This document shows positions 9,268-23,595 of a DNA stretch of 64,000 nucleotides, piece by piece. Positions within the stretch are counted from its first letter, which is position 1. Each line of letters begins with the position of its first letter. The DNA comes from Labrys monachus (lineage in GTDB: Bacteria > Pseudomonadota > Alphaproteobacteria > Rhizobiales > Labraceae). The DNA lies in assembly GCF_030814655.1 (NCBI RefSeq), contig NZ_JAUSVK010000001.1, forward strand, positions 565,043 to 629,042. Reading direction: 5' to 3'. The notes below the pieces were generated by a model that did no database searches, had not been told where the DNA came from, and worked only from the letters and a program-made list of their open reading frames with translations. A program made the translations under genes and the position numbers.

Positions 9268-10122
9268 ATGTTCCACGCCCTGAAAACTGCTGCTCTGATC
9301 CTCACGGCGGGCTTGATCGCCGCCGGCAGCGCGCAAGCCCGACCTGCCACGCCGGCGGCAGCCGTCAAGCTGTGGCGGCTGGACTGCGGTTCCTTTACGG
9401 CTCCAACCGACAATTTCTCGGATATCTTCGGGCATCCGGGGCAGCGGGGCGCGTATGTCGACAGCTGCTATCTCGTCCGTCATGGGAAGGATGTGATGTT
9501 GTGGGACGCGGGTCTGCCGCGTGCCCTTATCGGCCGACGGGCTGATCCCTCCCTGCCGATCCGCATGACGTTGATCCGCTCCGTGACGGATCAACTCGCC
9601 GCGCTCGGCCTGAAGCCGTCCGACGTCACTGTCCTCGGCATCAGCCACAATCATTCCGATCACACCGGACAGGCGGCCGATTTCCCGAACGCCCGCCTGC
9701 TGATGGCCGGCGTCGACTTCGAGGCGTTGACGCATACGCCTCCGCCGTTTTTCACCGATCCGGCTTCGCTCTCTCCCTGGCTTGCCGGCGACGGCAGGAA
9801 GGAGCTTGTCTCGGGCGACCACGACGTCTTCGGCGATGGCACCGTCGTGATGGTGGCGCTTCCGGGGCACACGGCTGGCAACCATGGCCTGCTGGTTCGC
9901 CTCGCTCACCGCAGACCCGTTCTCATCTCGGGAGATGCCATTCATTCGGCGGCACAATTGAAGACCCGCGCCGTGTCGCCCTTCAATGCGAGCCGATCCG
10001 ACTCCCTCGCGTCGATCGACCGGATGATCGGAATCATGCGCGCGACACACGCAACGCTGGTGACCGAGCACGACCCGGCTTCCGTCGCAAAACTTCCCGT
10101 CTTCCCAGCCGCTGCCGACTGA
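9268..10122 (+). CDS. exported metallo-beta-lactamase-fold hydrolase
   Basis: A 284-residue MBL-fold hydrolase. AGGAGA at 9255-9260 supports ATG 9268. Residues 1-24 form a Sec signal peptide ending at AQA, so the enzyme is periplasmic or secreted. The metal site is SHNHSDH (HxHxDH), with a further His in LPGHTAGNH, Asp in ISGDAIHS and a final His in VTEHD. The arrangement resembles the quorum-quenching AHL lactonase (AttM/AiiA-like) branch, but relatives also hydrolyse other esters. Divergent from a LysR gene, its probable regulator. Confidence 0.85.
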   Translation: MFHALKTAALILTAGLIAAGSAQARPATPAAAVKLWRLDCGSFTAPTDNFSDIFGHPGQRGAYVDSCYLVRHGKDVMLWDAGLPRALIGRRADPSLPIRMTLIRSVTDQLAALGLKPSDVTVLGISHNHSDHTGQAADFPNARLLMAGVDFEALTHTPPPFFTDPASLSPWLAGDGRKELVSGDHDVFGDGTVVMVALPGHTAGNHGLLVRLAHRRPVLISGDAIHSAAQLKTRAVSPFNASRSDSLASIDRMIGIMRATHATLVTEHDPASVAKLPVFPAAAD

Positions 10123-10562
10123 CGGACGAGACGACAGGCCAAGGGGCGACGGCAGCTCCGCCGATCGGCGGCCGGTGAGCGGCGAGCGTCTTCTCGCCTC
10201 CTTGGCAGCCAGCGCTGCTTTCGCCTTGAAGGCCGGGTGTGGTTCCGGCGCGGCCATCTCGGCATCTTCTCTGCTGTTCGCCAAGCCATCTTCCCACGGA
10301 TCGGTGCAGGCACCGCTTCCCGGCCCGCTCCGGCGCCCTTGGCGGCAGCGCCGTGTCCTGCCTGCTTTGACAGGAACTTGACAGGAAAGGCGCTGGCCCG
10401 GCGCCCGCTTTCCCCGAAAATCCCGAGGAGACTCAAATCCTTACACCAGAGTGCGCCCCTGTGGCCAACGCCGGCGTTCCAAACAGGACAGTTCGCACCT
10501 TCATCACGAAGCTGTTACCATCCGCTCGGTCAGTGCAGATTTCCCCAAGAGACCTCCTGGCC
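10123..10562. other. intergenic region with tandem -35-like repeat
   Basis: About 440 bases with no supported gene. The visible structure is a direct repeat TTGACAGGAA at 10367-10376 and again at 10378-10387 (11-bp period). Each copy contains a perfect TTGACA -35 box, but I see no convincing -10 at the usual distance. The segment at 10530-10560 contains GAGACCTCCTGG, an anti-Shine-Dalgarno-like CCTCC just ahead of the hairpin described next. Confidence 0.35.
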
Positions 10563-10616
10563 CGCACCGGCCGGTATATTGCCCAACCCCATGAGCCCGG
10601 CCGGTGCGTTCTTTTT
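10563..10616 (+). terminator. strong hairpin plus U-tract; possible end of a small RNA
   Basis: CGCACCGGCCGG (10563-10574) pairs perfectly with CCGGCCGGTGCG (10597-10608) around a 22-base loop and is followed by TTCTTTTT. It is a strong intrinsic terminator, but no coding gene ends just upstream (the nearest ends at 10122). Either it terminates a short non-coding transcript starting in 10370-10550 or it is a remnant. The CCTCC motif ahead of the stem is of the kind found in alphaproteobacterial trans-acting small RNAs. Confidence 0.5.
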
Positions 10617-10875
10617 CGGCACGGGCCGAGCCGGGATGCGGCGGCGGTGTCGTCTCGGCACCGGCTCGCGCGTACCCATCTGCCTGCGGCCGATACCGGT
10701 CGGCGCGGTCGACAGGCGCCCGTGCCGGCGCGACCCAAGGTTTTATTCAGGGAAAAGAATCGTTCAACGGGTTGCTCTGACAATGGTCCGAGCTCCTGTC
10801 GGTGTCGGCGGAGTATTCCCCATCGACTGCCTCCGACACAACCTGGGGATAATGCTGTCGCAAGACTGCAATTCC

Positions 10876-10894
10876 CGTTCAGGAACCGTTCAGG
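10876..10894 (+). promoter_or_regulatory. tandem CGTTCAGG direct repeat (OmpR-type site)
   Basis: CGTTCAGG at 10876-10883 recurs at 10887-10894, an 11-bp period (one helical turn), 44 bases before the proline-rich protein gene. Tandem repeats in this phase are the usual binding layout for OmpR/PhoB-type response regulators. The regulator itself is not identifiable. Confidence 0.45.
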
Positions 10895-10937
10895 GGCTGG
10901 AGCGTTTCATGGCACTGCTCTTCAGGAGGGAGCCGCA

Positions 10938-11237
10938 ATGAAAGTTCTCGCTGCGATAGTGTCTGGCGCGGCCCTTCTCGGGCTCGCGGCATCCGCACAG
11001 GCCATGCCGGCGGTCTCGGTGCAGGGACAGGATCTGGTGATCAAGGTGGCCGGCGGCTGCGGCCCAGGCTGGCATCCCAATCCGTGGGGGCGCTGCGTGC
11101 CCAACCGGCGCGTCTACGGCCATGCGCCTCCCCCCCCGCCGCCGTGGGCGCCGCCGCCGCCGCGGCACCGTCCCCCGCCGCCGCCTCCGTGGGGTGCGCC
11201 GCCGCCTCCGGGGGATGCTCCGCCGCCGCCCTATTGA
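10938..11237 (+). CDS. secreted proline-rich protein
   Basis: A 99-residue exported protein. AGGAGG at 10924-10929 supports ATG 10938. Residues 1-22 are a Sec signal peptide ending AQA. The mature part begins with a short conserved-looking segment, GCGPGWHPNPWGRCVPNR, which could form a disulphide-bonded loop, and ends with about 35 residues that are mostly proline broken by Trp, Arg, His and Gly. Similar GCGxGxHxNxxGRCVPN proteins are common, uncharacterised cell-envelope proteins of Rhizobiales. It is a single-gene unit with its own terminator at 11243-11270 and a tandem CGTTCAGG site upstream. Confidence 0.8.
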   Translation: MKVLAAIVSGAALLGLAASAQAMPAVSVQGQDLVIKVAGGCGPGWHPNPWGRCVPNRRVYGHAPPPPPPWAPPPPRHRPPPPPPWGAPPPPGDAPPPPY

Positions 11238-11242
11238 ACGAG

Positions 11243-11270
11243 AGCCCCGGCGCTATGCCGGGGCTTTTTT
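11243..11270 (+). terminator. intrinsic terminator
   Basis: AGCCCCGGC (11243-11251), loop GCTAT and GCCGGGGCT (11257-11265) form a perfect 9-bp stem followed by TTTTT. It closes the proline-rich protein gene. Confidence 0.92.
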
Positions 11271-11368
11271 GCAGGGCGTGGCGCGCTTCGCTCCGAGCGC
11301 ATGATCCGGATGACCGGGCAAGGCGCGCCCGGCTCAAGGCGGTGCGGCAAAGCGCACTGCACCGACGA

Positions 11369-12559
11369 TCATCGGATCCCCTCCCGGGCCGCTGACGGCG
11401 CGAGAATGTGCTCGACGAGATGGACCCAATAGCGCAGGCCGGCCGGAATGATCGCATCGTTGAAGACATATCGGTCGCCGTGCAGTCCTTCGCCCGGACC
11501 GACATCGCCGGCACCGAGCCAGGCATAGGTGCCTCCGGCCGCGCGGATCATATAGGCAAAGTCCTCGCAGCCGAGGCTGGGGGCGAAGTCGGTGATGACG
11601 TTGTGAAGGCCGACGGCCTTTTCGGCGGCGGCGATGGCCCGGGCGGTCGCGTCGGCCGTGTTGATCACGGCGGGGTAGCCCCTGGCGTATCGGAGGGTCG
11701 CCGTCACGCCATAGGCTGCCGCGACACCGCGGCAGATATCGTCGAGGGTGTTGGCGCAATGGTCCGACAGCATCGGATCGAAGAAGCGGCAGGTGCCTTG
11801 CAGCCATACCCGCTTCGGCACGATGTTCCCGACATTGCCGCCGTGGATCTGCGTCAGGCTGACGACGAGCGCCGACAAGGGATCCACCGAACGGCTGACG
11901 ATGCGCTGGATCGCCTGGATGAAGGCTCCTGACGCCAGCACGGGATCGTCGCCGAGATGCGGCATGGCGACATGCGCGCCTGTCCCCTCGAAGCTCACCT
12001 CGAAGCCGTCGACGGCGGCCATCTGCGGCCCGACACGGGCAGCGATGGCACCGACCCGGACCCCTGGCCAATTGTGCACGGCATAGACCGCCTCGACCGG
12101 GAACCGCTCCAGCATGCCCTCCTCGATCATGCGCCGCCCCCCGCCCTCATTCTCCTCGGCGGGCTGAAACATGAAGACGGCGGTGCCGTCGAAGTCCGGT
12201 CTCCGGCTGAGCAGCTTCGCCGCCCCCAGCAGCATGGCGGTGTGGCCGTCATGGCCGCAGGCGTGCATCACGCCCGGGTTGGCGGAGGCGTAGGCGACAT
12301 TCGCACGTTCGAGAACCGGAAGTGCGTCGAGTTCCGCCCGAAGGCCGACGGCGCGAGAGCCCGATCCGGCCTTCAGCACGCCGACGACGCCGGTTCCGGC
12401 GATGCCTTGGTGGACCTCGAGCCCGAACGATCGGAGCTTTTCCGCCACGAAGCGGGCGGTTTCATGCTCCTGGAAACCCAGTTCGGGATGGGCGTGGAGA
12501 TGGTGGCGCCAGCCGACGACTTCGGGCGTGATGGCGGTGATGGGGTCTTGAGGAAGCAT
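11369..12559 (-). CDS. M20 family metallo-amidohydrolase (hippurate hydrolase-like)
   Basis: A 396-residue M20D peptidase/amidohydrolase. Domain order is the usual catalytic part, inserted dimerisation lid, catalytic part. RHHLHAHPELGFQEHETARFV opens the enzyme, MHACGHDGHT supplies the metal-binding Cys/His and catalytic Asp, FQPAEENEGGG carries the base Glu, and CEDFAY near the C-terminus closes the site. Family members hydrolyse N-acyl amino acids (hippurate, N-acetyl amino acids, IAA conjugates). It diverges from the AsnC regulator at 12775, which probably controls it in response to an amino acid. Confidence 0.9.
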   Translation of the reverse strand: MLPQDPITAITPEVVGWRHHLHAHPELGFQEHETARFVAEKLRSFGLEVHQGIAGTGVVGVLKAGSGSRAVGLRAELDALPVLERANVAYASANPGVMHACGHDGHTAMLLGAAKLLSRRPDFDGTAVFMFQPAEENEGGGRRMIEEGMLERFPVEAVYAVHNWPGVRVGAIAARVGPQMAAVDGFEVSFEGTGAHVAMPHLGDDPVLASGAFIQAIQRIVSRSVDPLSALVVSLTQIHGGNVGNIVPKRVWLQGTCRFFDPMLSDHCANTLDDICRGVAAAYGVTATLRYARGYPAVINTADATARAIAAAEKAVGLHNVITDFAPSLGCEDFAYMIRAAGGTYAWLGAGDVGPGEGLHGDRYVFNDAIIPAGLRYWVHLVEHILAPSAAREGIR

Positions 12560-12774
12560 GAGGGATTCCGGGGCCCGTTGTTTCGAGGATGATCCGCAGC
12601 GGTCAGGCCATGCCCGGCAAGCGGCGTGGAAGCGCGGCCGGGCTGCGCGATCGGCCTTCCCTGTTCCATCGCCTCAGCCTATGCGAAACGCCGCGCCATT
12701 CGGTTTCGAAAATTGCTGGCCAAAGGCCTATTGCCGGCATAAATTTGAAGGTACGGGCCGAATTGAAGCAGAAT

Positions 12775-13239
12775 ATGCCAAGCATGATGGATGCCATCGA
12801 CAGACGCATTCTCCGCGTCCTGCAGCGGGATGGCCGGATCTCGAATGTGGACCTGGCCAGGGAAGTCGGGCTCTCGCCATCGCCGTGCCTGCGCCGCGTG
12901 AAGCTCCTGGAGGAGTCCGGGATGATCGAGCGCTATGTCGCGGTTCTCGACCCGGCGAAGGCCGGCCTGGCGCTCACCTTGTTCGCGCGCGTGTCCCTCA
13001 CGGCCCAGGATGCCGAAACGATCGAGCGCTTCGTGGCCGCGATGGAAAAGCTTCCGCAGGTGATGGAGTGCTACATCATTCTGGGCGACAGCGACGCTCT
13101 TCTGCGCGTCGTGGTGGCGGATCTCGACGCGTATCGCCAGTTCCAGTCGCGATACCTGACCCGGACCAACGGCATTCAATCGGTGAAGACGGACCTTCCG
13201 AGCCAGACGGTCAAACGGACATACGCCTTGCCGGTCTAA
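12775..13239 (+). CDS. Lrp/AsnC family transcriptional regulator
   Basis: A 154-residue feast/famine regulator. The N-terminal HTH is AIDRRILRVLQRDGRISNVDLAREVGLSPSPCLRR, and the C-terminal RAM (amino-acid binding) domain spans about residues 70-150. ATG 12775 gives the family's normal length; the frame is open upstream to 12589, but that part is not conserved-looking, and the ribosome site is weak for every candidate. It diverges from the M20 amidohydrolase, the most likely target. Confidence 0.87.
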   Translation: MPSMMDAIDRRILRVLQRDGRISNVDLAREVGLSPSPCLRRVKLLEESGMIERYVAVLDPAKAGLALTLFARVSLTAQDAETIERFVAAMEKLPQVMECYIILGDSDALLRVVVADLDAYRQFQSRYLTRTNGIQSVKTDLPSQTVKRTYALPV

Positions 13240-13282
13240 CCCGGCCGCGCGGATATCGCGCCGGCGCGCCTGCCATGCAGGA

Positions 13283-14197
13283 TCAATGCTTGCCGGCGCC
13301 CGGCTGTCTTCCGAAGCGGTCCGCGACGTGATCGATGAACCGGCGCAACGTCTGCGTCGGCGGGCGGGCCGCAGCGAACAGAAGATGCAGGGGGCGCGCG
13401 GGCGTTTCATACTCGGGCAGGACCTGCACCAGCCGGCCTGCGGCGAGGTCGTCCGCCAGGATCAGGTCCGCCTGCAGGACGATGCCGTGCCCGTCCAGCG
13501 CCGCCGCCCGCAGCACACGCGCGTCGTTCACCTGAAACCTGCTGCGCGGCTGGACCTTGTGAATCTCTCCCTCCCGGCCGAAGCGCCACTCGGCGAAAGG
13601 CTGCCCGGAGGCGAAGACGAAGCCGAGGCAATCATGCGCCGCGAGGTCCGCCGGCGTTCGCGGCATGCCCCGGGCGGCGAGATAGCCGGGCGAGGCGCAT
13701 GCGATCAGGCGGTAGGGCAGGAGCGCGCGGGCGGTGAGCCCGGAATCCCTGAGCGGCCCGAGGCGGATGACGGCGTCATAGCCTTCTCCGACGACATCGA
13801 CATAGCGGTCGGTCAGGTCGAGGGCGATCTCGACCTGCGGGTGGATGCGCAGGAAGTCCGCGATCAGGGGCGCGAGGGCGATGCTGCCGAAGGTCACCGG
13901 CGCGCTGACGCGCAAGCGTCCGCGCGGGGCGGTGGCGGATTCGCGGGCGACGGCTTCGGCCGCCTCGACCTCGCCGAGCACCAGGCGGCAGCGTTCATGG
14001 AAGGCCCGTCCGATCGCGGTGAGGCTCTGGCGCCGGGTCGACCGATGGAGGAGCCGCGCGCCGAGCCGTTCCTCCAGGAAGCTCACATGCTTGCCGACCA
14101 TCTGGGACGAGAGGCCGAGCGCCGCCCCCGCCGCGGTGAAGGAGCCGAGATCGGCGGCCTTCACGAAGACGGCCATGCTGGTGAGGCGATCCATCAT
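13283..14197 (-). CDS. LysR family transcriptional regulator
   Basis: A 304-residue LysR regulator of the CrgA/DsdC-like subgroup. The start MMDRLTSMAVFVKAADLGSF, helix-turn-helix LGLSSQMVGKHVSFLEERLG and the motif LLHRSTRRQSLTAIG are diagnostic. The effector domain begins near residue 88 (RGRLRVSAPVTFG). It is transcribed away from the NIPSNAP gene at 14381 with a small leader frame between them, so it likely regulates that unit. Confidence 0.88.
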   Translation of the reverse strand: MMDRLTSMAVFVKAADLGSFTAAGAALGLSSQMVGKHVSFLEERLGARLLHRSTRRQSLTAIGRAFHERCRLVLGEVEAAEAVARESATAPRGRLRVSAPVTFGSIALAPLIADFLRIHPQVEIALDLTDRYVDVVGEGYDAVIRLGPLRDSGLTARALLPYRLIACASPGYLAARGMPRTPADLAAHDCLGFVFASGQPFAEWRFGREGEIHKVQPRSRFQVNDARVLRAAALDGHGIVLQADLILADDLAAGRLVQVLPEYETPARPLHLLFAAARPPTQTLRRFIDHVADRFGRQPGAGKH

Positions 14198-14305
14198 TCC
14201 AAACGGCTGGTTTCAAATCATGAAGGATTTCCTCCCCTAATAACCCTGCTGCGTCAACCCATCTGTCTCCCAGCCGCAGACGGCAACACGGACCAGGAGA
14301 TGAAA

Positions 14306-14377
14306 ATGCCTTTCTTGCACGCAACCATGGCGCATCCGGAGGCCCCTCCCGGGCGCCCCGCCGCGGCGGAGGCCTGA
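14306..14377 (+). CDS. short leader frame ahead of the NIPSNAP gene (23 aa)
   Basis: ATG 14306 lies seven bases after AGGAG (14294-14298) and opens a 23-codon frame (MPFLHATMAHPEAPP...) ending TGA at 14375-14377, three bases before the NIPSNAP ATG. The peptide has no recognised family. The good ribosome site and tight junction suggest it is translated and couples translation of the next gene; an ATG at 14300 is also possible. It could equally be a fortuitous frame. Confidence 0.35.
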   Translation: MPFLHATMAHPEAPPGRPAAAEA

Positions 14378-14380
14378 GCG

Positions 14381-14989
14381 ATGCGCGAACTCTACGAACT
14401 CACGACGCTGGCGTTCCCGCTTCTCTGCGTATCGCAGGTCGCGAAGGCGGCGCGGGCCTGGGCCTCGATGCCCGACGCCGCCGGCACCCTGCTGGGCTGC
14501 TGGCGCACGGAGATCGGCCCGCTCGGCCGCCTGCTGATCCTGCGCCGCTTCGACGACGCCGGCGCCCTGCAGCGGGAGCGCCACCGCGCGCTGTCGAGCG
14601 CCAATCCGTTCAACGCCGGCGGCGTGATCACGGCGCTGGAGATGGACAGCTACAGCCCCTTTCTCTTCCTGCCGCCGGCGCGCGCCGGCGCCGACGACGC
14701 GGTCTACGAAGTCCGGACCTACCGGCTGAAGCCGGGCGGCCTGCCGCCGACGCTCGCCGGCTGGCAAGCCGCGATCGCGCCGGCCCGGGACTACACGGCG
14801 CATCTGATGATCAACATGCATGCGCTCGACGGGCCGCCCCGGATCACCCACATCTGGGGCTTCGACAGCCTCGCCCAGCGCGCCTCGCTGCGCAGCGCCG
14901 CCTACGCCGCGGGAACCTGGCCACCGAAGGGCGGCCCGGAAAACATCCTCGATGCGACATCGGTGATCGCGCTGCCCGAGAGCGGGTGA
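14381..14989 (+). CDS. NIPSNAP family protein
   Basis: A 202-residue protein with two ferredoxin-like dimeric alpha/beta barrel halves: MRELYELTTLAFP opens the first and DDAVYEVRTYRLKPGGLPPTL the second, the latter being the classic NIPSNAP start. ITHIWGFDSLAQRASLR in the second half is also typical. The biochemical role of bacterial NIPSNAP proteins is not settled. GGAGG at 14368-14372 supports ATG 14381. It is divergent from a LysR regulator. Confidence 0.82.
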   Translation: MRELYELTTLAFPLLCVSQVAKAARAWASMPDAAGTLLGCWRTEIGPLGRLLILRRFDDAGALQRERHRALSSANPFNAGGVITALEMDSYSPFLFLPPARAGADDAVYEVRTYRLKPGGLPPTLAGWQAAIAPARDYTAHLMINMHALDGPPRITHIWGFDSLAQRASLRSAAYAAGTWPPKGGPENILDATSVIALPESG

Positions 14990-14992
14990 CGT

Positions 14993-15203
14993 CTGTTCCG
15001 GCTGCCGGCGGAGCCGAACGGGCGCAACGGGCTGCGTTCCTCCTCCCGGTTGATGGTGGAAAGGATCACCACCGTGCCGAAGTCCAAGCTCGGCGAGCGG
15101 ATCGGGCGGCTGGAGAACGAGGGACCTGATGCGGCTCAATCAGGCCCTCATGCTGCTCCTCGGCCTGGCGGTGTCGCCGAGAACGAGCCGGAAAGGGGAA
15201 TGA
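14993..15203 (+). pseudogene. broken 3' part of a MazF/PemK-type toxin gene
   Basis: Only the C-terminal ~70 codons of a MazF/PemK endoribonuclease toxin remain. The frame from 14993 reads LFRLPAEPNGRNGLRSSSRLMVERITTVPKSKLGERIGRLENE, matching the end of the family (RLMVDKITTVPKSKLG is the typical core). A single extra G near 15121 (GAGGGACCTG in place of GAGGACCTG) then shifts the frame, and the downstream frame continues LMRLNQALMLLLGLAVSP to TGA at 15201. The N-terminus and any antitoxin are missing, and the preceding gene's stop abuts the remnant directly. Confidence 0.75.
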
Positions 15204-15273
15204 CGAGGAGCGTCGCTTCAGGACGCTTGCGGCGAACGGCGGCGCGAGCGCAGTGCCCGTTCGGGGAGTGAAA

Positions 15274-15288
15274 TGGCGGAGAGAGAAG
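15274..15288 (+). repeat. possible island attachment site (partial copy of the tRNA-Ser 3' end)
   Basis: TGGCGGAGAGAGAAG at 15274-15288 matches TGGCGGAGAGGGAGG at 23506-23520 in 13 of 15 positions (first 10 identical) and in the same orientation. The second copy is the CCA-bearing 3' end of tRNA-Ser on the minus strand. The two copies bracket the restriction operon, as attL/attR of an island inserted at a tRNA would. The match is short, so chance is not excluded. Confidence 0.4.
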
Positions 15289-15377
15289 ACTGGCCCAATT
15301 CAAGCGCCTCGAAAGGTACAACGAGCCGCGTCCACGCCCATCTTGGCTTGAAATGTCCTCTACGCCCATGGTCGGCA

Positions 15378-15653
15378 TCACTTGGGCTCGCAAACCGGGT
15401 TGACGATCATCAAATATTTCTGGCCAACCCCCAGCATGCTCCAGCCTTCTTGCGTGACGCTGCCGTGGCAAACAACTTCCTTGCCGGCAAGCTCTTCGGA
15501 TATCTTTTGTTGGTCTGGTGAATCGAAGGCCATCCGGAGTTCTGTGGCCACCCTGTTTTCCCAAGCAGGCCCGTTTTGAACAGAAAAGCAGAAAAACCGT
15601 TGGAGTGAGCCCAAATGCGTGGGCACTACTAAATTTACGCCGCCGCCCGCCAT
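15378..15653 (-). CDS. hypothetical protein, up to 91 aa, 3' of hsdR
   Basis: A minus-strand frame just downstream of hsdR. Its last ~60 residues look like real protein (ATELRMAFDSPDQQ then ISEELAGKEVVCHGSVTQEG and GVGQKYLMIVNPVCEPK) and suggest a small beta-rich fold, perhaps the end of an OB-like domain. The N-terminal part reads less well and ATG 15653 has no ribosome site, so the start is uncertain or the gene is a truncated remnant at the island edge. No family is recognised. Confidence 0.35.
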   Translation of the reverse strand: MAGGGVNLVVPTHLGSLQRFFCFSVQNGPAWENRVATELRMAFDSPDQQKISEELAGKEVVCHGSVTQEGWSMLGVGQKYLMIVNPVCEPK

Positions 15654-15684
15654 CGTGCGGCTTGCCGTGCAGGAGCGACTTAGA

Positions 15685-18600
15685 TCAGGAGGCCCCTGTT
15701 TCGCGCACCTCGCGCAAGGCCCGACTGAAGAGGTGGTTGAAGATACGATCGCGATCTTCCGCGTTGGTCATAATGATGCTTTGAAGGCTGCTGTCGCGCT
15801 GATATTGCTTGATCGTCTCTTCAAGGAGACGGCGCACGAAGGTCGGGCGAGAGACATCCGGCGGATTGTTCCGCAGCACTGCCGCCATTTCCTCATCGAG
15901 CGCCTTGCGCTTTACCTGTTCGAGACGGATGAAGTCCTCTTCCGTAAACTGCGTCCCGTGCCGCTCATTGAATGAGCGGACAATCTCTGAAAGTGCCTTC
16001 GCCTCGTCCTCGGTATAGGGCTTGGCCCCAAATTCACTGATCCCGGTAAGCGGCACGGTGTCGCCCGCCACAAGCGACGCGGAGCCAGCTTCTTTCTGTT
16101 GAACGCGGACGGCGCGCAGGCGCAGCATTTCGTCCGTGATCTCGACTTCCGGCGGCTGTTCGCGGTTGGGCAACATCCGGTCCAGCCAATCGGTGTAGGC
16201 ATAGAGCTTTTCCAAGCTGGTATCTCCCAGCCGGACAATTTGTGCGACGAAACTGTAGAACCGCTTGTAGCTTCTCAAAAGCTGCCGGAACTCTTCCTGC
16301 CGGCCTTCGTCATCCTCGGCTTCAAACCGCGCCACGGCGTTGCGGACCAGAGATTCCAGCGTCACACGATCCTGAGTGGACAGCGTTCCCTTGAAGAAGG
16401 TCGTGGCAAATCGCTCGATCTCGCTGCTGTCGAGATAGCCGAACGTGCGGATGCGCGTCTCCAACTGATAGATCTGGTTCTTGTCGGAAACCGCTTCGAG
16501 GCTGGACACCTCGTAGAAGGGGCGGAACGCTTCCTTGATATCATCCATCGTGTTCTGAAAATCGAGGATGAAGGTTCGTTCCTTGCCCTGGTAAATCCTG
16601 TTCAGCCGGGACAGGGTCTGGACGGCCTGCAACCCCGCCAGCTTCTTGTCGATATACATCCCGGACAATTTCGGCTGGTCAAAGCCGGTCTGATATTTTT
16701 CCGCGACGATGAGAATTTGATATTCTGCGGTATCGAAGCGCTTGGGCAACTCGCTTTCGCCGAACCCATTCAACTCGGCCTCGGTGTAGGTATTGCCATC
16801 GACGTGCAGCTCGCCGGAAAAAGCGACGAGCGCCTTAACGTCGCGATACCCCTTGTCCTCGATATAGGTCTTGAGCGCGAAATAATAGCGAAGGGCGCTT
16901 TCCCGGCTTGATGTCACGATCATGGCCTTCGCCTGGCCATCCAGTTCCGGTCTGACATGGCGCTGGAAATGCTCGACCATCACCTCGACCTTCTGGCTCA
17001 GAGCGGTCGGATGCAGGGCCGCGAAGCGCGCGACCTTCCGTTGCGTACGCCGCGTATCTAGTTCCGGGTCATCGTCGATTGTCTTTTCCAGGGCGTAATA
17101 CGCCTTGTAGGTCATGTAGTTTTGAAGCACGTCGAGGATGAAACCCTCCTCGATCGCCTGCCGCATGGAATAGAGATGAAACGGATGCGGCAGCCCATTT
17201 GCGCCGATCGTGCCGAAACGCTCAAGTGTGACATTGCGGGGCGTCGCCGTGAAGGCGAAGTAGCTGATGTTCACTTGCGGGCCGCGCTGGCGCTGGTATT
17301 CCGCGATCAGGTCTTCGATCTCGTCGGTCGTCGCGGCCTCTTCGTCGCGGCTGAGGGCGTCGCTCAAGGCTTGGGCGCTCTTGCCGGACTGAGAGCCATG
17401 CGCCTCGTCGATCAGCACGGCGAAGCGCCGCGTTCCCTGTCCGCTGATGACACGAAGATGATCGGTCGAAAACTTCTGGATCGTGGTGATGATGATCTTC
17501 GCCTGCCCCTCGATCGCCGCCTTCAATTGCCGTGAGGTTCCGTCGATCTTGCGAACGACGCCGGGCGTCTGCTCGAACTGGGCAATGGTGTTCTGAAGCT
17601 GGCGATCGAGAACGACGCGATCCGTCACCACGATCGCGGTGTCGAATATCGGCTGGTCGAAAGGATCGTGCAACGTCACCAGCCGATGCGCCGTCCAGGC
17701 GATCGTGTTGGATTTTCCCGATCCCGCCGAATGTTGGATCAGATAATTGTTGCCGCTGCCGTTGGCGCGAGCATGGGCCAGCATCTTCAGAACCGCGTCG
17801 ATCTGATGGAAACGCGGAAAGATAAGCGCTTCCTTGCCGTTCGTGCCGTCGAGGTGGAGGAACCGCCCGATGATGTCGAGAAGGATATCGCGGGAGAAAA
17901 CCGCCTGTCCTTCGGGTTGATTTGCCCAGAGATAGGCGACACGAAACTCCCCTTCGATATCCGGGTTTCCCGCGCCGCCGTCATGCCCGCGATTGAAGGG
18001 AAGGAACCGAGTCTTACCGTTATGGAGGCGGGTGGTCATCGACACGTTGTCCTGATCCACCGCGAAATGGACCAGGGCCCCTCGCTTGAACGTCAGCAGC
18101 GGTTCATTGGCGGGCGCCCGGTCATGGCGATACTGACGCTCGGCATGACGGAAATTCTGGCCGGTCAGGGTGTTCTTCAGTTCCAGCGTCGCCACGGGTA
18201 AGCCGTTGACGAACAATCCCACGTCGATGGCATTCTCGTTCTTCGCGCTGTAGCGAAGCTGACTGATGACGCTGAGGATATTGCCCTCGAACAGCGTCAC
18301 CAAAGCCGGGTTGACGCCGGACGCCGGCTTGAAGGCGGCGAGGAAGAATTTCAGGTTCGGAACCAGCTTCAGCCCGTTGCGCAGCACATCCAGCGTGCCG
18401 CGCTGCTTCAATCCCTGCTCAAACTGCTTGAAGAACTCGGCTTCGGCGGAAGGACCGTAATGGCCTTCCAGCTTCGCCCATTCGTCGGGTTGCGTCGCTT
18501 TGACGAACTCGATCACCAGGGTTTTGTCGAGCGCGGAGGCGCGGTCATAGTCCTCGGGCCGGCGGGGACGATAGCCCTGGCATTCCACCAACGCTTTGCA

Positions 18601-18693
18601 CAGATGGATCTCCAGCACCTCTTCCCGGTGGACGGTGTCTTCGGAAAAGCCCTTGGCATAGGGATGAGAGGTCGATGGCTGTTCGTAATTCAT
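15685..18693 (-). CDS. hsdR: type I restriction enzyme, R (endonuclease/translocase) subunit
   Basis: A 1002-residue HsdR. The N-terminal endonuclease region (residues about 1-250) contains [14 protein letters not shown], the PD-(D/E)xK core with its E-x-K. Helicase motifs follow: [14 protein letters not shown] (Walker A), LIDEAHGSQ (DEAH), FTATPRN (motif III), and later [14 protein letters not shown] and [12 protein letters not shown]. The C-terminal helical domain binds HsdM. GGGGAGA eight bases upstream supports ATG 18693, which overlaps the stop of the preceding gene as ATGA. It cleaves unmodified DNA at a distance from the target in complex with M and S. Confidence 0.95.
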
Positions 18694-19310
18694 GGCCGAT
18701 CTCCCCTTGCCATGCGGATCAGCCAATTTCTCTCCACAAGCGCGGCGTTTAACGCCGCCATTGCAGCCTTCAGATGCAGTAGATCGACATGTATCTCGTC
18801 GGTGATCGGCTTGCCATCCTTGGCCTTCGGCGTACCGTACTCGCCATAGCGAAACGCCTCCGATCCCGGATCGATTGCCGCCAACTCGTCGCAGCGCTTG
18901 ATGATCCAAGGCGGCACTGTTTCATCGGCTTGCCGCTTGTGATGCGCGTAGCTGCGAGCGAGTTTGCCGAGGTCATGGATGTCCTTCTCGGCGCGGGCTT
19001 TGGGCGGAAGTCCTGACTTCAGAAGAAGCTCGAAAGAATGCCGATAGAGAAACAGCGCCGCGTTCGCGACCTGATAATCCGCGACGCGCCGGTCAAGGAT
19101 GGAGTCGATCAGCGCTTCCGCCGCCGCAAAATACTGCTCGGCAAGGGCGCCGTCGCGTTCAGCTTGCATCGATGGACGCGCAAAGCCGCCAATCACGAAA
19201 CCAAGCGGACCGCTCCACTCGTCGGGCCGCTCATGCTTTTCGTTCATCGGCTCGAAGAGCGGACGGGTCATCGCGTCTTTGCTGTGGGTGTTGGAAGCCA
19301 TATCCATCAT
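18690..19310 (-). CDS. HEPN-like protein inside the type I restriction operon
   Basis: A 206-residue protein placed between hsdS and hsdR. ATG 19310 overlaps the hsdS stop as ATGA, and its own stop overlaps the hsdR ATG in the same way, so it is cotranslated with the restriction genes. A helical core at residues about 55-130 carries [13 protein letters not shown] and [13 protein letters not shown]. These resemble HEPN-family proteins, and R119-x4-H124 fits the RX4-6H motif of HEPN ribonucleases. The C-terminal part ([16 protein letters not shown]) is another helix. No membrane segment is present. It might be a toxin or nucleotide-processing partner of the restriction system, or a structural accessory. 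The family call is by eye and tentative. Confidence 0.55.
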
Positions 19311-21211
19311 AAAAGCCTCGGCGTCATGGTGGGTGTTGTTCTCGGACCCTGGCCTCGCGGAATGAGGTTGTGGCGCCTGATCCACTCAAGCCAAGTCGTC
19401 AGGTCGGCGGCAGTGAACTTCTCGCCCTTCTCTGTGTGCCACTCGTGCAGCACACCGTTGATGATCGCAGCGTCGTCAGGTGTTTCGCCGTCAATCAAAG
19501 CGTCGTTCCAGACAGCGTAGAGCGTGGTGACAGCTTCGGTTGCGCGGCGGTCAAGGTCGGCGAGCATGGCGATAAGGTTACGCAGCGCCTCGGCCTTGGG
19601 ACCTAACAATGTGGCAAGTTCGGTCTTGTGCTGCCCAGCCTTCGCGAGTGGTGTATAGGTAACGGCGGTGCCAGTCCCGTCCGTCTGATTGGCACGATAG
19701 TAACCTGCGGCTTCAAGGCTACGCTCCGTTTCCTCTCTCAAGGCACGGTCGAGCGGCCCCGCTGCCTCGCGGAGATAGTTCCCCCGAAGCGCGTCGATGC
19801 CGAGATGAGTTTCGGCAAGGTAAGTGATCTTATGCATCTTCACTCGTGCGCGCTTTGGATCGTCGGGTAGTCGGTGGATGATCTCCGCTCCAACGACGAG
19901 GCGGGCCCTACCCCTATCTAATGTGGATGTAACGGCCTGCAGCTTCTCGTGGATGTCGATCTGGCCCGCGACGGCTGCGGTGATAAGGGCGGCACGATAC
20001 TCCCGCAATCTCTCCACAGACTCGGTGATCTTTCTTGCTGCACCACGAAACGCACCGGTGAGTTGGTCAAGTTGCTGAACAATCGCGTCCTGCTGGTCCA
20101 GGGGCGGAAGCGGCAGACGAAAGGTCCGGATATCTGGCATGTAGATCGTCTGGTGTGTTGACCCCATCATGAGTCGCCGGAAAACAGGCTTCATGGAACG
20201 CAGTACGTAGTAGAGAAACTTCGGTCGGACGCGATGGCCGCAAATCCACCCCGCAAAATCCTGCGTGGTCGCCATCGGGACAGACAGGATTGCGGGGAAT
20301 CCGACTGACGCAGTTCGCGAAAGGATGACGGTGTCCGCTGGAAGCAAGCGAGCGGCTGAGTTCTCCATGCCGAGCGCACTGATCTTCTCGGCGGTCTCGT
20401 GAACGTAAATCCGACCGCCATCCCGTATTTGCCAGACGTCAGCCAGAGAGAACCATGGGATTACACACTCCTCCGGCACCCAATAGCTTTCTTCCTTACG
20501 ACTAGGCGTATGCCCGGTTTCTTGGCGTGCGACATGGGTGAACTTGGGAGCGGACCAGTGCGCTGGGATCGACCCAATCCACTCGACGCCTGAATTTTTC
20601 CTCGATCCCTCTGGGCTCTGTGCCGTAACGACACCCAGAAATGTTGCCTCCTCGCGCTCTGCCAGAACGGCAGCCTGCCGCTCCTTCTTCGCGATCAGCT
20701 TTTCGATGCGGGCGGTTTCGCGGTCGAGGAAGGCGGCGATGGCCTTTTGAGTTGCCAGATCTGTAATCGGAAGCTGGAAATCCTTGATCGCATCGTCTGA
20801 GATGCGTCGGAGCCCGCCAGCTCCGGTCATGCTGGCGATCCCAGCGGCCCGAAATGCCTCGGATGAGAGCAGGTATCTGAGATAGTTTGGATCGACCTTC
20901 CGGCGATCAGGCCGGATTACATGGACCTCGGATGTCGCGAAACCGATCCGGTTGGGGAGATTCGTCACCAGAGCTTTCTTGCCGTTCTCGAAACAAGGTG
21001 TGACCTTGGCGAGTAGCAGGTCCCCTTCGGCGAAATAGCTGTAGCTACCGTCCCCGAGTTCATCGGCAGGCCGCTCCAAGCTCGTATCGAGACCGCCAAG
21101 GCCGTCGGCGAGCGCATCCATGGGAGCGAAAGTCACGTTCCCGTATCCGGCGAGTTCGCCCGCTTCTGTTTTCGACGGGTTGAGGCGTGTTAAAAAACGC
21201 AGGCGCGTCAT
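19307..21211 (-). CDS. hsdS: type I restriction enzyme, S (specificity) subunit with C-terminal extension
   Basis: A 634-residue specificity subunit, well above the usual ~400-450. It has two target recognition domains (about residues 1-155 and 205-385), each followed by the conserved coiled spacer: KAIAAFLDRETARIEKLIAK after the first and DAIVQQLDQLTGAFRGAARK after the second, ending AVAGQIDI near 428. Some 200 further residues form a separate domain with KMHKITYLAETHLGID and AAGPLD, a long helical part and a C-terminal LHEWHTEKGEKF segment. The KxHKxxYLAE...AGPLD pattern recalls Panacea/SocA-like antitoxin domains, but I cannot confirm that. The ATG overlaps the hsdM stop as ATGA. Confidence 0.9.
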   Translation of the reverse strand: MTRLRFLTRLNPSKTEAGELAGYGNVTFAPMDALADGLGGLDTSLERPADELGDGSYSYFAEGDLLLAKVTPCFENGKKALVTNLPNRIGFATSEVHVIRPDRRKVDPNYLRYLLSSEAFRAAGIASMTGAGGLRRISDDAIKDFQLPITDLATQKAIAAFLDRETARIEKLIAKKERQAAVLAEREEATFLGVVTAQSPEGSRKNSGVEWIGSIPAHWSAPKFTHVARQETGHTPSRKEESYWVPEECVIPWFSLADVWQIRDGGRIYVHETAEKISALGMENSAARLLPADTVILSRTASVGFPAILSVPMATTQDFAGWICGHRVRPKFLYYVLRSMKPVFRRLMMGSTHQTIYMPDIRTFRLPLPPLDQQDAIVQQLDQLTGAFRGAARKITESVERLREYRAALITAAVAGQIDIHEKLQAVTSTLDRGRARLVVGAEIIHRLPDDPKRARVKMHKITYLAETHLGIDALRGNYLREAAGPLDRALREETERSLEAAGYYRANQTDGTGTAVTYTPLAKAGQHKTELATLLGPKAEALRNLIAMLADLDRRATEAVTTLYAVWNDALIDGETPDDAAIINGVLHEWHTEKGEKFTAADLTTWLEWIRRHNLIPRGQGPRTTPTMTPRLL

Positions 21212-23247
21212 CCCGCCACCTCTTTCAGGAGGTTCGCGATGTCCGCCTCCAGCGTCTTCAACTCGGTGTCGATCTCGGCCAGCGGGCGCGGCGCGACATA
21301 GCGATAGAAGTAGCGGTTGAAATTGATCTCGTAGCCGACGCGGCCGACGCCCTTGTCAGCGTCATCCCGGTAAGTCTCATCCACCCATGCGTCCGGCACG
21401 AAGGGTGTCACCTCGCGGGCGACATGATCTTTCCAATCCTCCTTGAGCGGCACAAGCTCATGGTCGCGCAGTTCGGGGTCCGGCTCCGGCCGGCCATCCC
21501 CATCGAGACAGATGGCGGCGGACTCGTCCCGCTCTGACAGTGCGGAAAGGATCGCTTTTCTGACCGGTGCGCCGATCTTCACACCCGCGCCCTTGAGCGC
21601 CTTGGTCAGGGCGGCCTCGAATGCGGGGCGTTCCTTGAACAGAGTGGTCGGCAGACGATTGGCGATGACGTTCAACACGTCATCCTGGTCGGCGGGGTCC
21701 AGCTTCAGGAAAGGCTTGGCGAGCTTCAGCCGCTCGATGCGTTCGGGACCGGATTGGAAATTCAGCCGGAGCGGGCGCTCCACCCTGATCTCGCGGAAGC
21801 CGAAATCGGTGGCATCGGAAATCTTCGACACCGCGCTCCACGGCCCGCCGCCGTTCGCCATCTCGTGGAAGATATGCGTGATGGTCTCGCGCCCATCATC
21901 GCGTATTTCCCGGCGCTTCGAGCCAAGGCTTTTGCGCATGGGCGCCCAGAAGCGTTCGCCCGATGCGTCGATGAGCTGGACCTTGCCGCGCCGTTTCCGC
22001 TCCTTGCGGTTGGTCAACAGCCAGACATAGGTTTGGATGCCGGTGTTGTAGAAAAGGTCGGTCGGCAGCGCGACGATGGCCTCGACCCAGTCGTTTTCCA
22101 GCATCCAGCGGCGGATTTCGCTTTCGCCCGATCCGGCACCGCCGGTGAAGAGCGGCGAGCCGTTCATGACGATGCCGATGCGCGAACCGACTTCATCGGT
22201 CCGCATCTTGGAAATCATGTGCTGGAGAAAGAGAAGCTGGCCGTCCGAGATGCGCGGTAGGCCCGCGCCGAAGCGGCCGTCCTTGCCCTGGGTCGCCGCT
22301 TCCTCCCGGATCGGCTCCTGATACTTTTTCCAATCCACGCCATAGGGCGGATTGGACAGCATGTAGTGGAAGCGCCGGTCCTTGTGGGCGTCCTGGGTCA
22401 GCGTGTTGCCGAAGGTGATGTTTTCCGGGTCATGGCCCGTCACCAGCATGTCGGATTTGCAGATGCCGAAGGACTCCCCGTTCAGCTCCTGGCCGAAAAG
22501 CTCGACGCGGATATCGGGATTGAACTCTTTCAGCGCTTCCTCGGCGAGCGCGAGCATCCCGCCCGTGCCGCACGCCGGATCATAAATCTGCCGGATGATC
22601 CCCCGACCCCGGAGCTTTTCGTCATCGTTGACGATGATGAGGTCCACGATCAGCCGGATCACTTCGCGCGGCGTGAAGTGCTCGCCGGCGGTTTCGTTGG
22701 AGATCTCCGAGAAGCGGCGGATCAGGTCTTCAAACAGATAACCCATCGTCAGTGTCGAGACGGCTTCCGGCCGAAGGTTGAGCGAGGCGAATTGCTCGAA
22801 CACCTTCCACAAGAGGCTGGCGTCGGCGAGGCGCTTCAGCTGATCCGTGAAAAGGAACTTGTCGAGAAATACATCCCGAACGGAGTCCGAGAAGGCCGTG
22901 ATGTAGGCGATAAGATTCTTATGAATGTCGGACGGGTTCTGCGCCCCGATTTTGGTGAACGTCAGCGAGCTGGTGTTGTAAACGCGGATGCCGCCGCCGA
23001 TAACGCCACACAGCATCATATCGCGGGTTAGCTCATCTATGCCGGGCGGCAATCCGGCATAGGCTTTCAGAACGGCATCTTTTGTGGGTTCAAGGATGCA
23101 ATCTAGACGACGCAGTACCACAAAAGGCAAGATAACCTTGCCATATTCTGATTGCTTGAAGTCACCGCGAAGGGTCTCGGCAATCTGCCAAACAAAGTTC
23201 GATAGAACTTTTGCCTTCGATGCTACACCTTGATCCACGCAAATCAC
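21208..23247 (-). CDS. hsdM: type I restriction enzyme, M (DNA adenine methyltransferase) subunit
   Basis: A 679-residue N6-adenine methyltransferase. The N-terminal helical domain (NFVWQIAETLRGDFKQSEYG) precedes the SAM-binding motif DPACGTGGML and the catalytic NPPY (in MLSNPPYGVDWKKY). The C-terminal ~180 residues include EINFNRYFYRY and a coiled end that docks with HsdS. It starts with GTG: 23247 is the longest form, but a GTG three codons later (23238) has better spacing from AGGTGAG. It is first in the hsdM-hsdS-HEPN-hsdR operon; methylation protects host sites and forms the core of the restriction complex. Confidence 0.95.
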   Translation of the reverse strand: MICVDQGVASKAKVLSNFVWQIAETLRGDFKQSEYGKVILPFVVLRRLDCILEPTKDAVLKAYAGLPPGIDELTRDMMLCGVIGGGIRVYNTSSLTFTKIGAQNPSDIHKNLIAYITAFSDSVRDVFLDKFLFTDQLKRLADASLLWKVFEQFASLNLRPEAVSTLTMGYLFEDLIRRFSEISNETAGEHFTPREVIRLIVDLIIVNDDEKLRGRGIIRQIYDPACGTGGMLALAEEALKEFNPDIRVELFGQELNGESFGICKSDMLVTGHDPENITFGNTLTQDAHKDRRFHYMLSNPPYGVDWKKYQEPIREEAATQGKDGRFGAGLPRISDGQLLFLQHMISKMRTDEVGSRIGIVMNGSPLFTGGAGSGESEIRRWMLENDWVEAIVALPTDLFYNTGIQTYVWLLTNRKERKRRGKVQLIDASGERFWAPMRKSLGSKRREIRDDGRETITHIFHEMANGGGPWSAVSKISDATDFGFREIRVERPLRLNFQSGPERIERLKLAKPFLKLDPADQDDVLNVIANRLPTTLFKERPAFEAALTKALKGAGVKIGAPVRKAILSALSERDESAAICLDGDGRPEPDPELRDHELVPLKEDWKDHVAREVTPFVPDAWVDETYRDDADKGVGRVGYEINFNRYFYRYVAPRPLAEIDTELKTLEADIANLLKEVAG

Positions 23248-23505
23248 TCACCTTTGGCCGATTCGCGCGCAAGTGAGCATCGGGACGATGATCGTCTCGG
23301 CCCGGCCGGACACTAACCCAGTGTACGATAACATACCGGTGCTTAATAGATTGGAAATGTCAAGGGCCGCAATCTGGCCAGCCTCACCCTCTAGGAAGCG
23401 TGATTCCCGTGAACATGCGTTTAACGTCACGGCGGAATCGACGGCTCGCTATGCCGCTTGGTGTCATATAGCGCTCGGCGGAACTACCGCGCTGTAGAGG
23501 CTAAT
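23248..23505. promoter_or_regulatory. hsdM upstream region at the island/tRNA junction
   Basis: About 260 bases between the tRNA-Ser 3' end and hsdM. It is clearly less GC-rich than the flanks and must hold the promoter of the restriction operon. No integrase or other open gene is visible. Sequence such as GTACGATAACATACCGG (23325-23341) is a plausible promoter core, but no box pair is convincing by eye. Confidence 0.4.
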
Positions 23506-23595
23506 TGGCGGAGAGGGAGGGATTCGAACCCCCGATGGAGTTGCCCCCATGCCGCATTTCGAGTGCGGTGCATTCGACCACTCTGCCACCTCTCC
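23506..23595 (-). tRNA. tRNA-Ser (anticodon CGA)
   Basis: Read on the minus strand, GGAGAGG (23595-23589) pairs with CCTCTCC at the 3' end, followed by G and an encoded CCA ending at 23506. The anticodon arm is CCGCA-CTCGAAA-TGCGG, giving anticodon CGA for the UCG codon. GGTTCGAATCC is the T-arm. The 90-base length reflects the long variable arm (CATGGGGGCAACTCCATC) of class II tRNAs. The restriction island lies directly beyond its 3' end. Confidence 0.95.

Follow-up and report, generated by a model that had tools for sequence, protein, structure and literature searches.

The prevailing view of embedded effectors, PrrC among them, is that they guard restriction enzymes against inhibitors made by phages, and embedded defenses are reportedly also the subject of a 2024 preprint by Payne and colleagues. 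PrrC is described as embedded in a type I restriction-modification (R-M) operon (PMC3874165, PMC12707154), and its triad is given as R-x3-E-...-H (PMC2610378). DarTG2 is reported to lie in the slot between hsdS and hsdR, which the same paper calls a potential recombination hotspot (PMC12255303). TgvAB is likewise embedded in a type I cluster, and, as reported, it protected, less strongly, without the type I genes, with T1RM restriction activity playing no direct part (PMC11411939). Among HEPN proteins, at least 16 clades are linked to R-M systems and the HEPN-T family clusters with R-M operons, according to PMC3710099, which describes for HEPN-T and AbiV a layout with Glu in helix 2, His in an insert separating helices 2 and 3, and a retained Arg, suggests the insert His as a possible alternative active site in both, and regards some HEPN domains without the Rx4-6H motif as probably only binding RNA. 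Finally, Panacea antitoxins are reported to have partners among dozens of toxin types, and a sensor role is considered possible for the domain (PMC10440598, PMC8832971).

Here we analyze a type I R-M operon of Labrys monachus in a stretch of 64,000 nucleotides (the window; contig NZ_JAUSVK010000001.1, positions 565,043 to 629,042), in which a small gene, designated X, lies between hsdS and hsdR. Our preferred reading, to which we assign a probability of about 0.42, is that X may be a restriction-guarded HEPN effector with a C-terminal tail of HsdS as its likely restraint. The features discussed below, in window coordinates and with the evidence for each, are as follows.

21208..23247, minus strand: hsdM, DNA N6-adenine methyltransferase subunit, GTG start as called (Pfam, PADLOC)
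19307..21211, minus strand: hsdS, specificity subunit of 634 residues, with the ordinary HsdS part at approximately residues 1–425 (Pfam, PADLOC)
19310..19921, minus strand: C-terminal HsdS extension, residues 431–634, weakly Panacea-like at profile level (profile, model)
18690..19310, minus strand: gene X, HEPN-T (PF05168-like) protein of 206 residues (translation, Pfam, alignment, model, profile)
15685..18693, minus strand: hsdR, restriction/translocase subunit (Pfam, PADLOC, NCBIfam)
19029..19031, minus strand: E94 of X, in E-x3-K of helix 2, 26 of 26 aligned rows (alignment, model; coordinates counted from the start at 19310)
18975..18977, minus strand: H112 of X, in HDL of the insert between helices 2 and 3, 26 of 26 rows (alignment, model)
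18849..18851, minus strand: R154 of X, in FRY just after helix 3, 26 of 26 rows (alignment, model)
18954..18956, minus strand: R119 of X, the catalytic Arg of the original prediction, R in 4 of 26 rows (alignment)
18939..18941, minus strand: H124 of X, the catalytic His of the original prediction, H in 6 of 26 rows (alignment)

The operon runs hsdM, hsdS, X, hsdR on the minus strand, and the identity of the three hsd genes is backed by Pfam, PADLOC, and NCBIfam together. The reading frame of X comprises 206 codons and a stop from 19310 down to 18690; its ATG at 19310 shares four bases (ATGA) with the hsdS stop, and its own stop shares four bases (ATGA) with the hsdR ATG at 18693, so the coordinates bear out the original prediction of a 206-residue gene with ATGA overlaps on both sides. 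A four-base overlap also joins hsdM to hsdS (21208–21211), and ATGA is thus found at all three operon junctions. X had further been described as locked into the operon by its overlaps. The co-translation implied by that description holds, but the lock is not particular to X: hsdS also overlaps hsdR by four bases in the related X-less operons L142, L150, and L155 (script-called), and the overlaps therefore represent the co-translation usual for this operon type. X itself is a real gene under purifying selection, because its ortholog in Mesorhizobium loti LU is 86% identical and because dN/dS is low, at 0.076–0.176 in six of the eight pairs computed; the other two pairs, the nearly identical L047/L048 and the diverged window/L039, gave 0.30.

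The operon lies in a variable region beside a tRNA gene, a tRNA-Ser(cga) directly upstream of hsdM (23506–23595). This tRNA-Ser and the genes to its right are kept in three same-genus genomes, but window positions 10000–23498 had no match in the 14-kb stretches examined there, which therefore did not reveal a clean empty site. A 16-base, 88% match to the tRNA-Ser end at 15271 was judged to be due to chance.

We surveyed the space between hsdS and hsdR in related operons by fetching 20 regions of 26 HsdR places (L018, L021, L023, L026, L028, and the window's own place were not fetched), one of which was the second locus of the same genome. Both hsdS and hsdR were seen in 18 regions, 17 called by phmmer and the hsdS of L147 by eye; L144 and L153 did not show both and were not counted. 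One or more genes lay between hsdS and hsdR in 9 of the 18 operons, and the slot was counted as empty in 9, among them the ambiguous L158. The cargo comprised DarT and Macro (L156), a DarT/Macro-like pair recognized by eye (L157), a KwaB-like protein with a 190-residue one (L143), AAA_21 genes (L146 and L148), GmrSD (L152), DUF4268 (L151), an unknown 195-residue gene (L149), and an HNH-like gene recognized by eye (L147). The hsdS-hsdR gap is a cargo slot, and it is likely that X is defense cargo within it. Two of these slots deserve separate mention: the L. monachus genome itself carries, at ∼5.19 Mb (G000:C1; L156:6575-8263, minus strand), a second type I operon with a DarTG pair in its slot, and the KwaB-like gene (PF16162) and its neighbor in L143 (6005-7448, minus strand) are possibly a Kiwa pair.

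X is rare. A single-sequence query matched 1 genome, its own, in a draw of 385 from the class and 1 of 5 genomes within the genus, and a two-row profile matched 4 of 398 genomes drawn from the phylum, one of these only at E 0.002. Among 72,556 plasmid records, one (Salipiger abyssi pPABY8) encodes a relative, whereas viral contigs and phage records contained no close relative and a distant one in a single viral contig. In a scan of genome contigs, 116 stretches matched, of which 24 encode X relatives (tblastn). The proposed search for Hsd operons carrying the same X was productive, returning twelve: the window, Salipiger (L002), M. loti LU (L035, on the same contig as L032), M. ephedrae (L036), Rhizobium alarense (L037), Acidomonas (L039), Paracoccus versutus (L040), a Rhizobiales MAG (L041), a Pleomorphomonas MAG (L042, with hsdR split by a stop), Xanthobacteraceae 501b (L043), a Gemmobacter MAG (L044, partial), and Roseovarius lutimaris (L049, with a 300-residue gene between hsdM and hsdS). 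X occurs without an Hsd operon in L038 and L045–L048, and relatives in L045, L047, L048, and L055 adjoin other restriction genes without Hsd. The distant relative in L055 (8845-9471) is convergent with ResIII and N6_N4_Mtase genes, which are probably a type III restriction pair. Homologs lacking the R119/H124 pair and found outside defense loci had been named in advance as evidence against the HEPN proposal; homologs without the pair are indeed found, but as to location, 12 are in Hsd operons, several are next to other restriction genes, and some have no visible defense neighbor.

In 10 of the 12 X operons, including the window, HsdS bears a tail of ∼200 residues, which is absent from L002 and L049; the nine other tails are 63–82% identical to that of the window. 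For 17 of the 18 surveyed related operons hsdS was included in the search, and the tail was detected in none of them. Across 297 genomes of the order it was found in five, two with X and three with a DUF4357-type protein in the slot (Pfam was run on one of these three loci), such that the slot was occupied in all five. A Fisher value for slot occupancy with versus without the tail (p = 0.0036) was set aside in favor of this five-genome set because 10 of the 13 tailed operons had been found through X or were the window itself. In the three DUF4357 loci (L065:5696-6610, L066, and L067) the order is Panacea-like-tailed HsdS, the DUF4357 protein (GIY-YIG-like by eye), and then hsdR.

The tail was confidently modeled (pLDDT 82.8, pTM 0.81), and profile comparison suggests that it is likely related to the Panacea antitoxin domain. 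The 13 tails scored 22.9 against 18 Panacea domains (18 of 19 PF13274 loci, L174 being left out), compared with at most 9.6 for 200 shuffles, 4.2 for the reversed profile, and at most 11.2 for 24 decoys. Taken separately, the three DUF4357-locus tails scored 31.2, the ten X-locus tails 11.9, and the window tail 7.5, out of register; the DUF4357-locus and X-locus groups match one another at E 7e-67. Against PF13274 itself (cut-off 25.7 bits), the L066 and L067 tails gave sub-threshold matches of 17.6 and 18.4 bits (E 0.0076 and 0.0044), and neither the L065 tail nor, at E up to 10, any of the ten X-locus tails matched. Sequence searches of solved structures with the S-tail alignment and with the X alignment each returned only unrelated proteins (E 0.17 or worse), and the viral contigs and phage records contained no close relative of the tail. 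By title, none of the matches listed in a literature search covering few subscription papers describes a Panacea-HsdS fusion. A distant relative of the tail (26% identity) is encoded on a Tunicatimonas pelagia plasmid (L183:5734-6540), where a helicase gene adjoins it and a DNA methyltransferase gene lies nearby.

Comparison of the window with its relatives revealed a mosaic. Identity to Acidomonas (L039) is 95% for hsdM and 97% for hsdR and falls to 54% for X and 64% for the tail, whereas identity to M. loti is 82, 89, 86, and 82%, respectively; the nearest relative of the window is therefore M. loti for the tail and X and Acidomonas for hsdM and hsdR. At the DNA level, identity between the window and L039 is 92% for hsdM and, starting with the first base of hsdR, 93%; it drops to 71% for the tail and to 74% for X, of which 39% is covered by the match. 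The window and M. loti are 75–83% identical in these genes. Because hsdM and hsdR are near-identical to those of L039 and the tail and X have diverged, the tail and X have been replaced, up to the hsdR start, in one of the two lineages, and the replacement of both probably happened together. This co-exchange comes from one comparison and may be no general rule, since in the eight other operons compared (L044, on a partial contig, was dropped) the agreement of X with the tail is no better than its agreement with hsdM and hsdR: without the window, X distances follow hsdM (r 0.96) and hsdR (r 0.78) better than the tail (r 0.67), and the correlation between tail and X distances (r 0.66) depends on the window.

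These results bear on the strongest of the alternatives, namely that X is an independent defense gene parked in the slot and sharing only transcription and translation with hsd, much as is reported for TgvAB. The unrelated genes in half of the surveyed slots, the X relatives beside other restriction genes, and the protection by TgvAB without type I genes (PMC11411939) all fit such a gene, but an HsdS tail seen in 10 of 12 X operons and in none of the 17 surveyed relatives searched speaks against it, and we consider it unlikely, if the most credible of the rivals. An effector guarded by the restriction enzyme, with the tail as its restraint, remains our preferred reading.

The HEPN assignment, made by eye in the original prediction, held up, and X very probably has the HEPN fold. 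X matches Pfam PF05168 at 15.5 bits (E 0.019), below the gathering score of 22 bits, and sub-threshold matches are found in 11 of the 26 aligned rows (E up to 1; best E 0.00072). A 24-row X profile compared with 28 PF05168 domains by hhalign (28 of 34 loci; L070, L071, L075, L088, L090, and L098 left out) scored 32.0 (E 5e-6, probability 70%) across all 119 columns, and 33.7 in the reverse direction, against at most 16.9 for 200 column shuffles, 1.9 for the reversed profile, and at most 7.8 for 14 decoy slices. This signal leans on the distant rows: the 11 closest rows alone scored 14.6 (E 0.0076), within the shuffle range of the full set, and the 8 distant rows alone scored 25.0, the two groups matching one another at E 3e-20. 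Structure prediction, suggested as a check, gave a confident AlphaFold2 model (pLDDT 81.6, pTM 0.80) with core helices at residues 49–72, 78–99, 134–146, and 177–193 and, between helices 2 and 3, an insert with helices 103–108 and 114–127; the four-helix core and insert were judged from the helix order of the model alone. A PF01934-type (R[ND]xxxH, HepT-like) HEPN was ruled out by a score of 1.8 against 25 PF01934 domains (25 of 30 loci; L123, L125, L126, L131, and L132 left out). Of the 28 PF05168 sequences, 23 carry [TS]H[DNS]L, 25 carry RY[PEDG], and 6 carry any Rx4-6H, whereas R[ND]xxxHxY is seen in 24 of the 25 PF01934 sequences. On these profile scores and motif compositions, assignment of X to the HEPN-T (PF05168) kind is supported. 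No AbiV profile could be made because PF18728 gave too few matches (one, below cut-off, in 120 genomes). The PADLOC candidate PDC-S19 weakly matched 28 residues of X (E 0.018) and was matched by 6 of the 26 rows (best 0.0074).

We then considered the residues conserved in the 26-row alignment, which reaches down to 22% identity to X (L058, a fragment, was dropped from alignments A4 and A5, and P0005 and L034 from A5). Y60, H91, E94, K98, H112, L117, R154, and Y155 are invariant in all 26 rows, X included. Because the X loci were found through two peptide patterns spanning the YRH and IDPGS stretches, conservation within those stretches is partly by construction; E94, K98, H112, R154, and Y155 fall outside both patterns. 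These five residues correspond to what has been proposed as an alternative active site in HEPN-T and AbiV. It is about an even proposition that X is a nuclease acting through E94, H112, and R154. The 17 residues originally highlighted in X ([17 protein letters not shown]) and its R119-x4-H124 are present as claimed. R119 and H124 occur together in 3 of the 26 rows (X, its M. loti ortholog, and L042), and any Rx4-6H anywhere occurs in 13; in 9 rows, X included (R106-x5-H112), such a motif ends at the invariant H112, and in none of the 26 does one start at R154. X therefore lacks the canonical mark of an RNase HEPN, a conserved Rx4-6H where helix 3 ends, and may be non-catalytic. A HEPN without catalytic activity, binding nucleic acid or an Hsd subunit and modulating the enzyme, would agree with the absence of a conserved motif and with the view that some motif-less HEPN domains probably only bind RNA (PMC3710099); the invariance of E94, K98, H112, and R154, however, seems more than a purely structural role needs, and we rate this reading as a little less likely again than an independent gene.

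Neighboring genes in some X operons raise a further possibility. An Mrr-type nuclease, recognized through similarity to the PF04471-bearing P0009, accompanies X in L035, L042, L002, and L049, a TIR protein (PF10137) in L041, and, in L002 (6176-6700) and L049 (8456-9010), a second HEPN-like gene encoding the 174-residue P0006, which by eye resembles a classical HEPN in its RNAVAH (RNxxxH) motif and for which Pfam gave no informative match. X might accordingly restrain or assist a neighboring nuclease instead of being the effector, but it is the only slot gene seen in 7 of the 12 operons (the window, L036, L037, L039, L040, L043, and L044), which makes such a helper role improbable. Other genes in or beside these operons include the 300-residue gene of L049 (5190-6092), which resembles Abi_2 (AbiD/AbiF-like) by eye, an Abi_C (PF14355) gene that immediately follows hsdR in Salipiger (L002:10230-11123), and a HipA-like (PF07804) gene a short way downstream of hsdR in L036 (12783-14105), with a similar one by eye in L037. 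Least probable by far is the classical HEPN RNase with R119/H124 as active site, as first proposed: X and two orthologs have the motif, but the pair is missing from the remaining 23 rows, sits in the insert helix of the model rather than at the junction of helices 3 and 4 where Rx4-6H belongs, and comes without a profile match to the R[ND]xxxH family.

Overall, the results lead us to favor X as a restriction-guarded HEPN-T accessory defense effector that occupies the hsdS-hsdR slot as cargo and is co-produced with the enzyme. X would most likely be a latent RNA-cutting toxin with an active site formed by E94, H112, and R154, perhaps with R90/H91, and not by R119/H124. In the resting cell the restriction complex would keep X silent, most likely via the Panacea-like tail of HsdS, and a phage that inhibits or strips the complex would release X and stop growth, a guard logic like that of PrrC; the RNase activity, the restraint by HsdS, and the trigger are what we infer here. 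That the HsdS tail restrains X is a tentative proposal, slightly less secure than the reading as a whole. More speculative still is its generalized form, in which HsdS would act as a Panacea-like antitoxin, by fusion, for a co-translated HEPN toxin or DUF4357 protein, loss or inhibition of the complex would fire the toxin, and tail and effector would travel from operon to operon as one cassette. If true, an antitoxin-like S tail with a swappable effector would be a simple and testable way to silence small ATPase-less effectors, and tail plus slot effector would provide a sequence rule for finding more such systems. In addition, the case of R119/H124 teaches that HEPN candidates need family-wide conservation as judge rather than a single R-x4-H.

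Compared with known systems, X resembles HEPN-T (PF05168) in the order of its four helices and in the placement of E-x3-K (helix 2), HDL (insert), and RY (after helix 3). It differs in that ∼48 residues precede the first helix of the core and that helix 2 contains R90-H91 (R in 25 and H in 26 of 26 rows), where the PF05168 sequences compared mostly have Q. The HsdS tail shares with Panacea (SocA-like, PF13274) a KLQK-x-LY...GPL pattern and a co-linear profile match but, unlike Panacea, is fused to HsdS and falls under the Pfam cut-off in every tail tested. As described for DarTG2 and TgvAB, X occupies the same slot or follows the same operon logic, although those effectors are unrelated to X and here HsdS itself has an added tail. 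Like PrrC of EcoprrI, as far as that system is described, X is a HEPN-type protein within a type I R-M operon, and R90-x3-E94-...-H112 of X resembles the PrrC triad by spacing only. PrrC is approximately twice as long as X, which at 206 residues has no N-terminal ABC ATPase (none in Pfam, NCBIfam, or PADLOC); and whereas PrrC is an anticodon nuclease that cleaves tRNA when the R-M enzyme is inhibited, X is a putative RNase.
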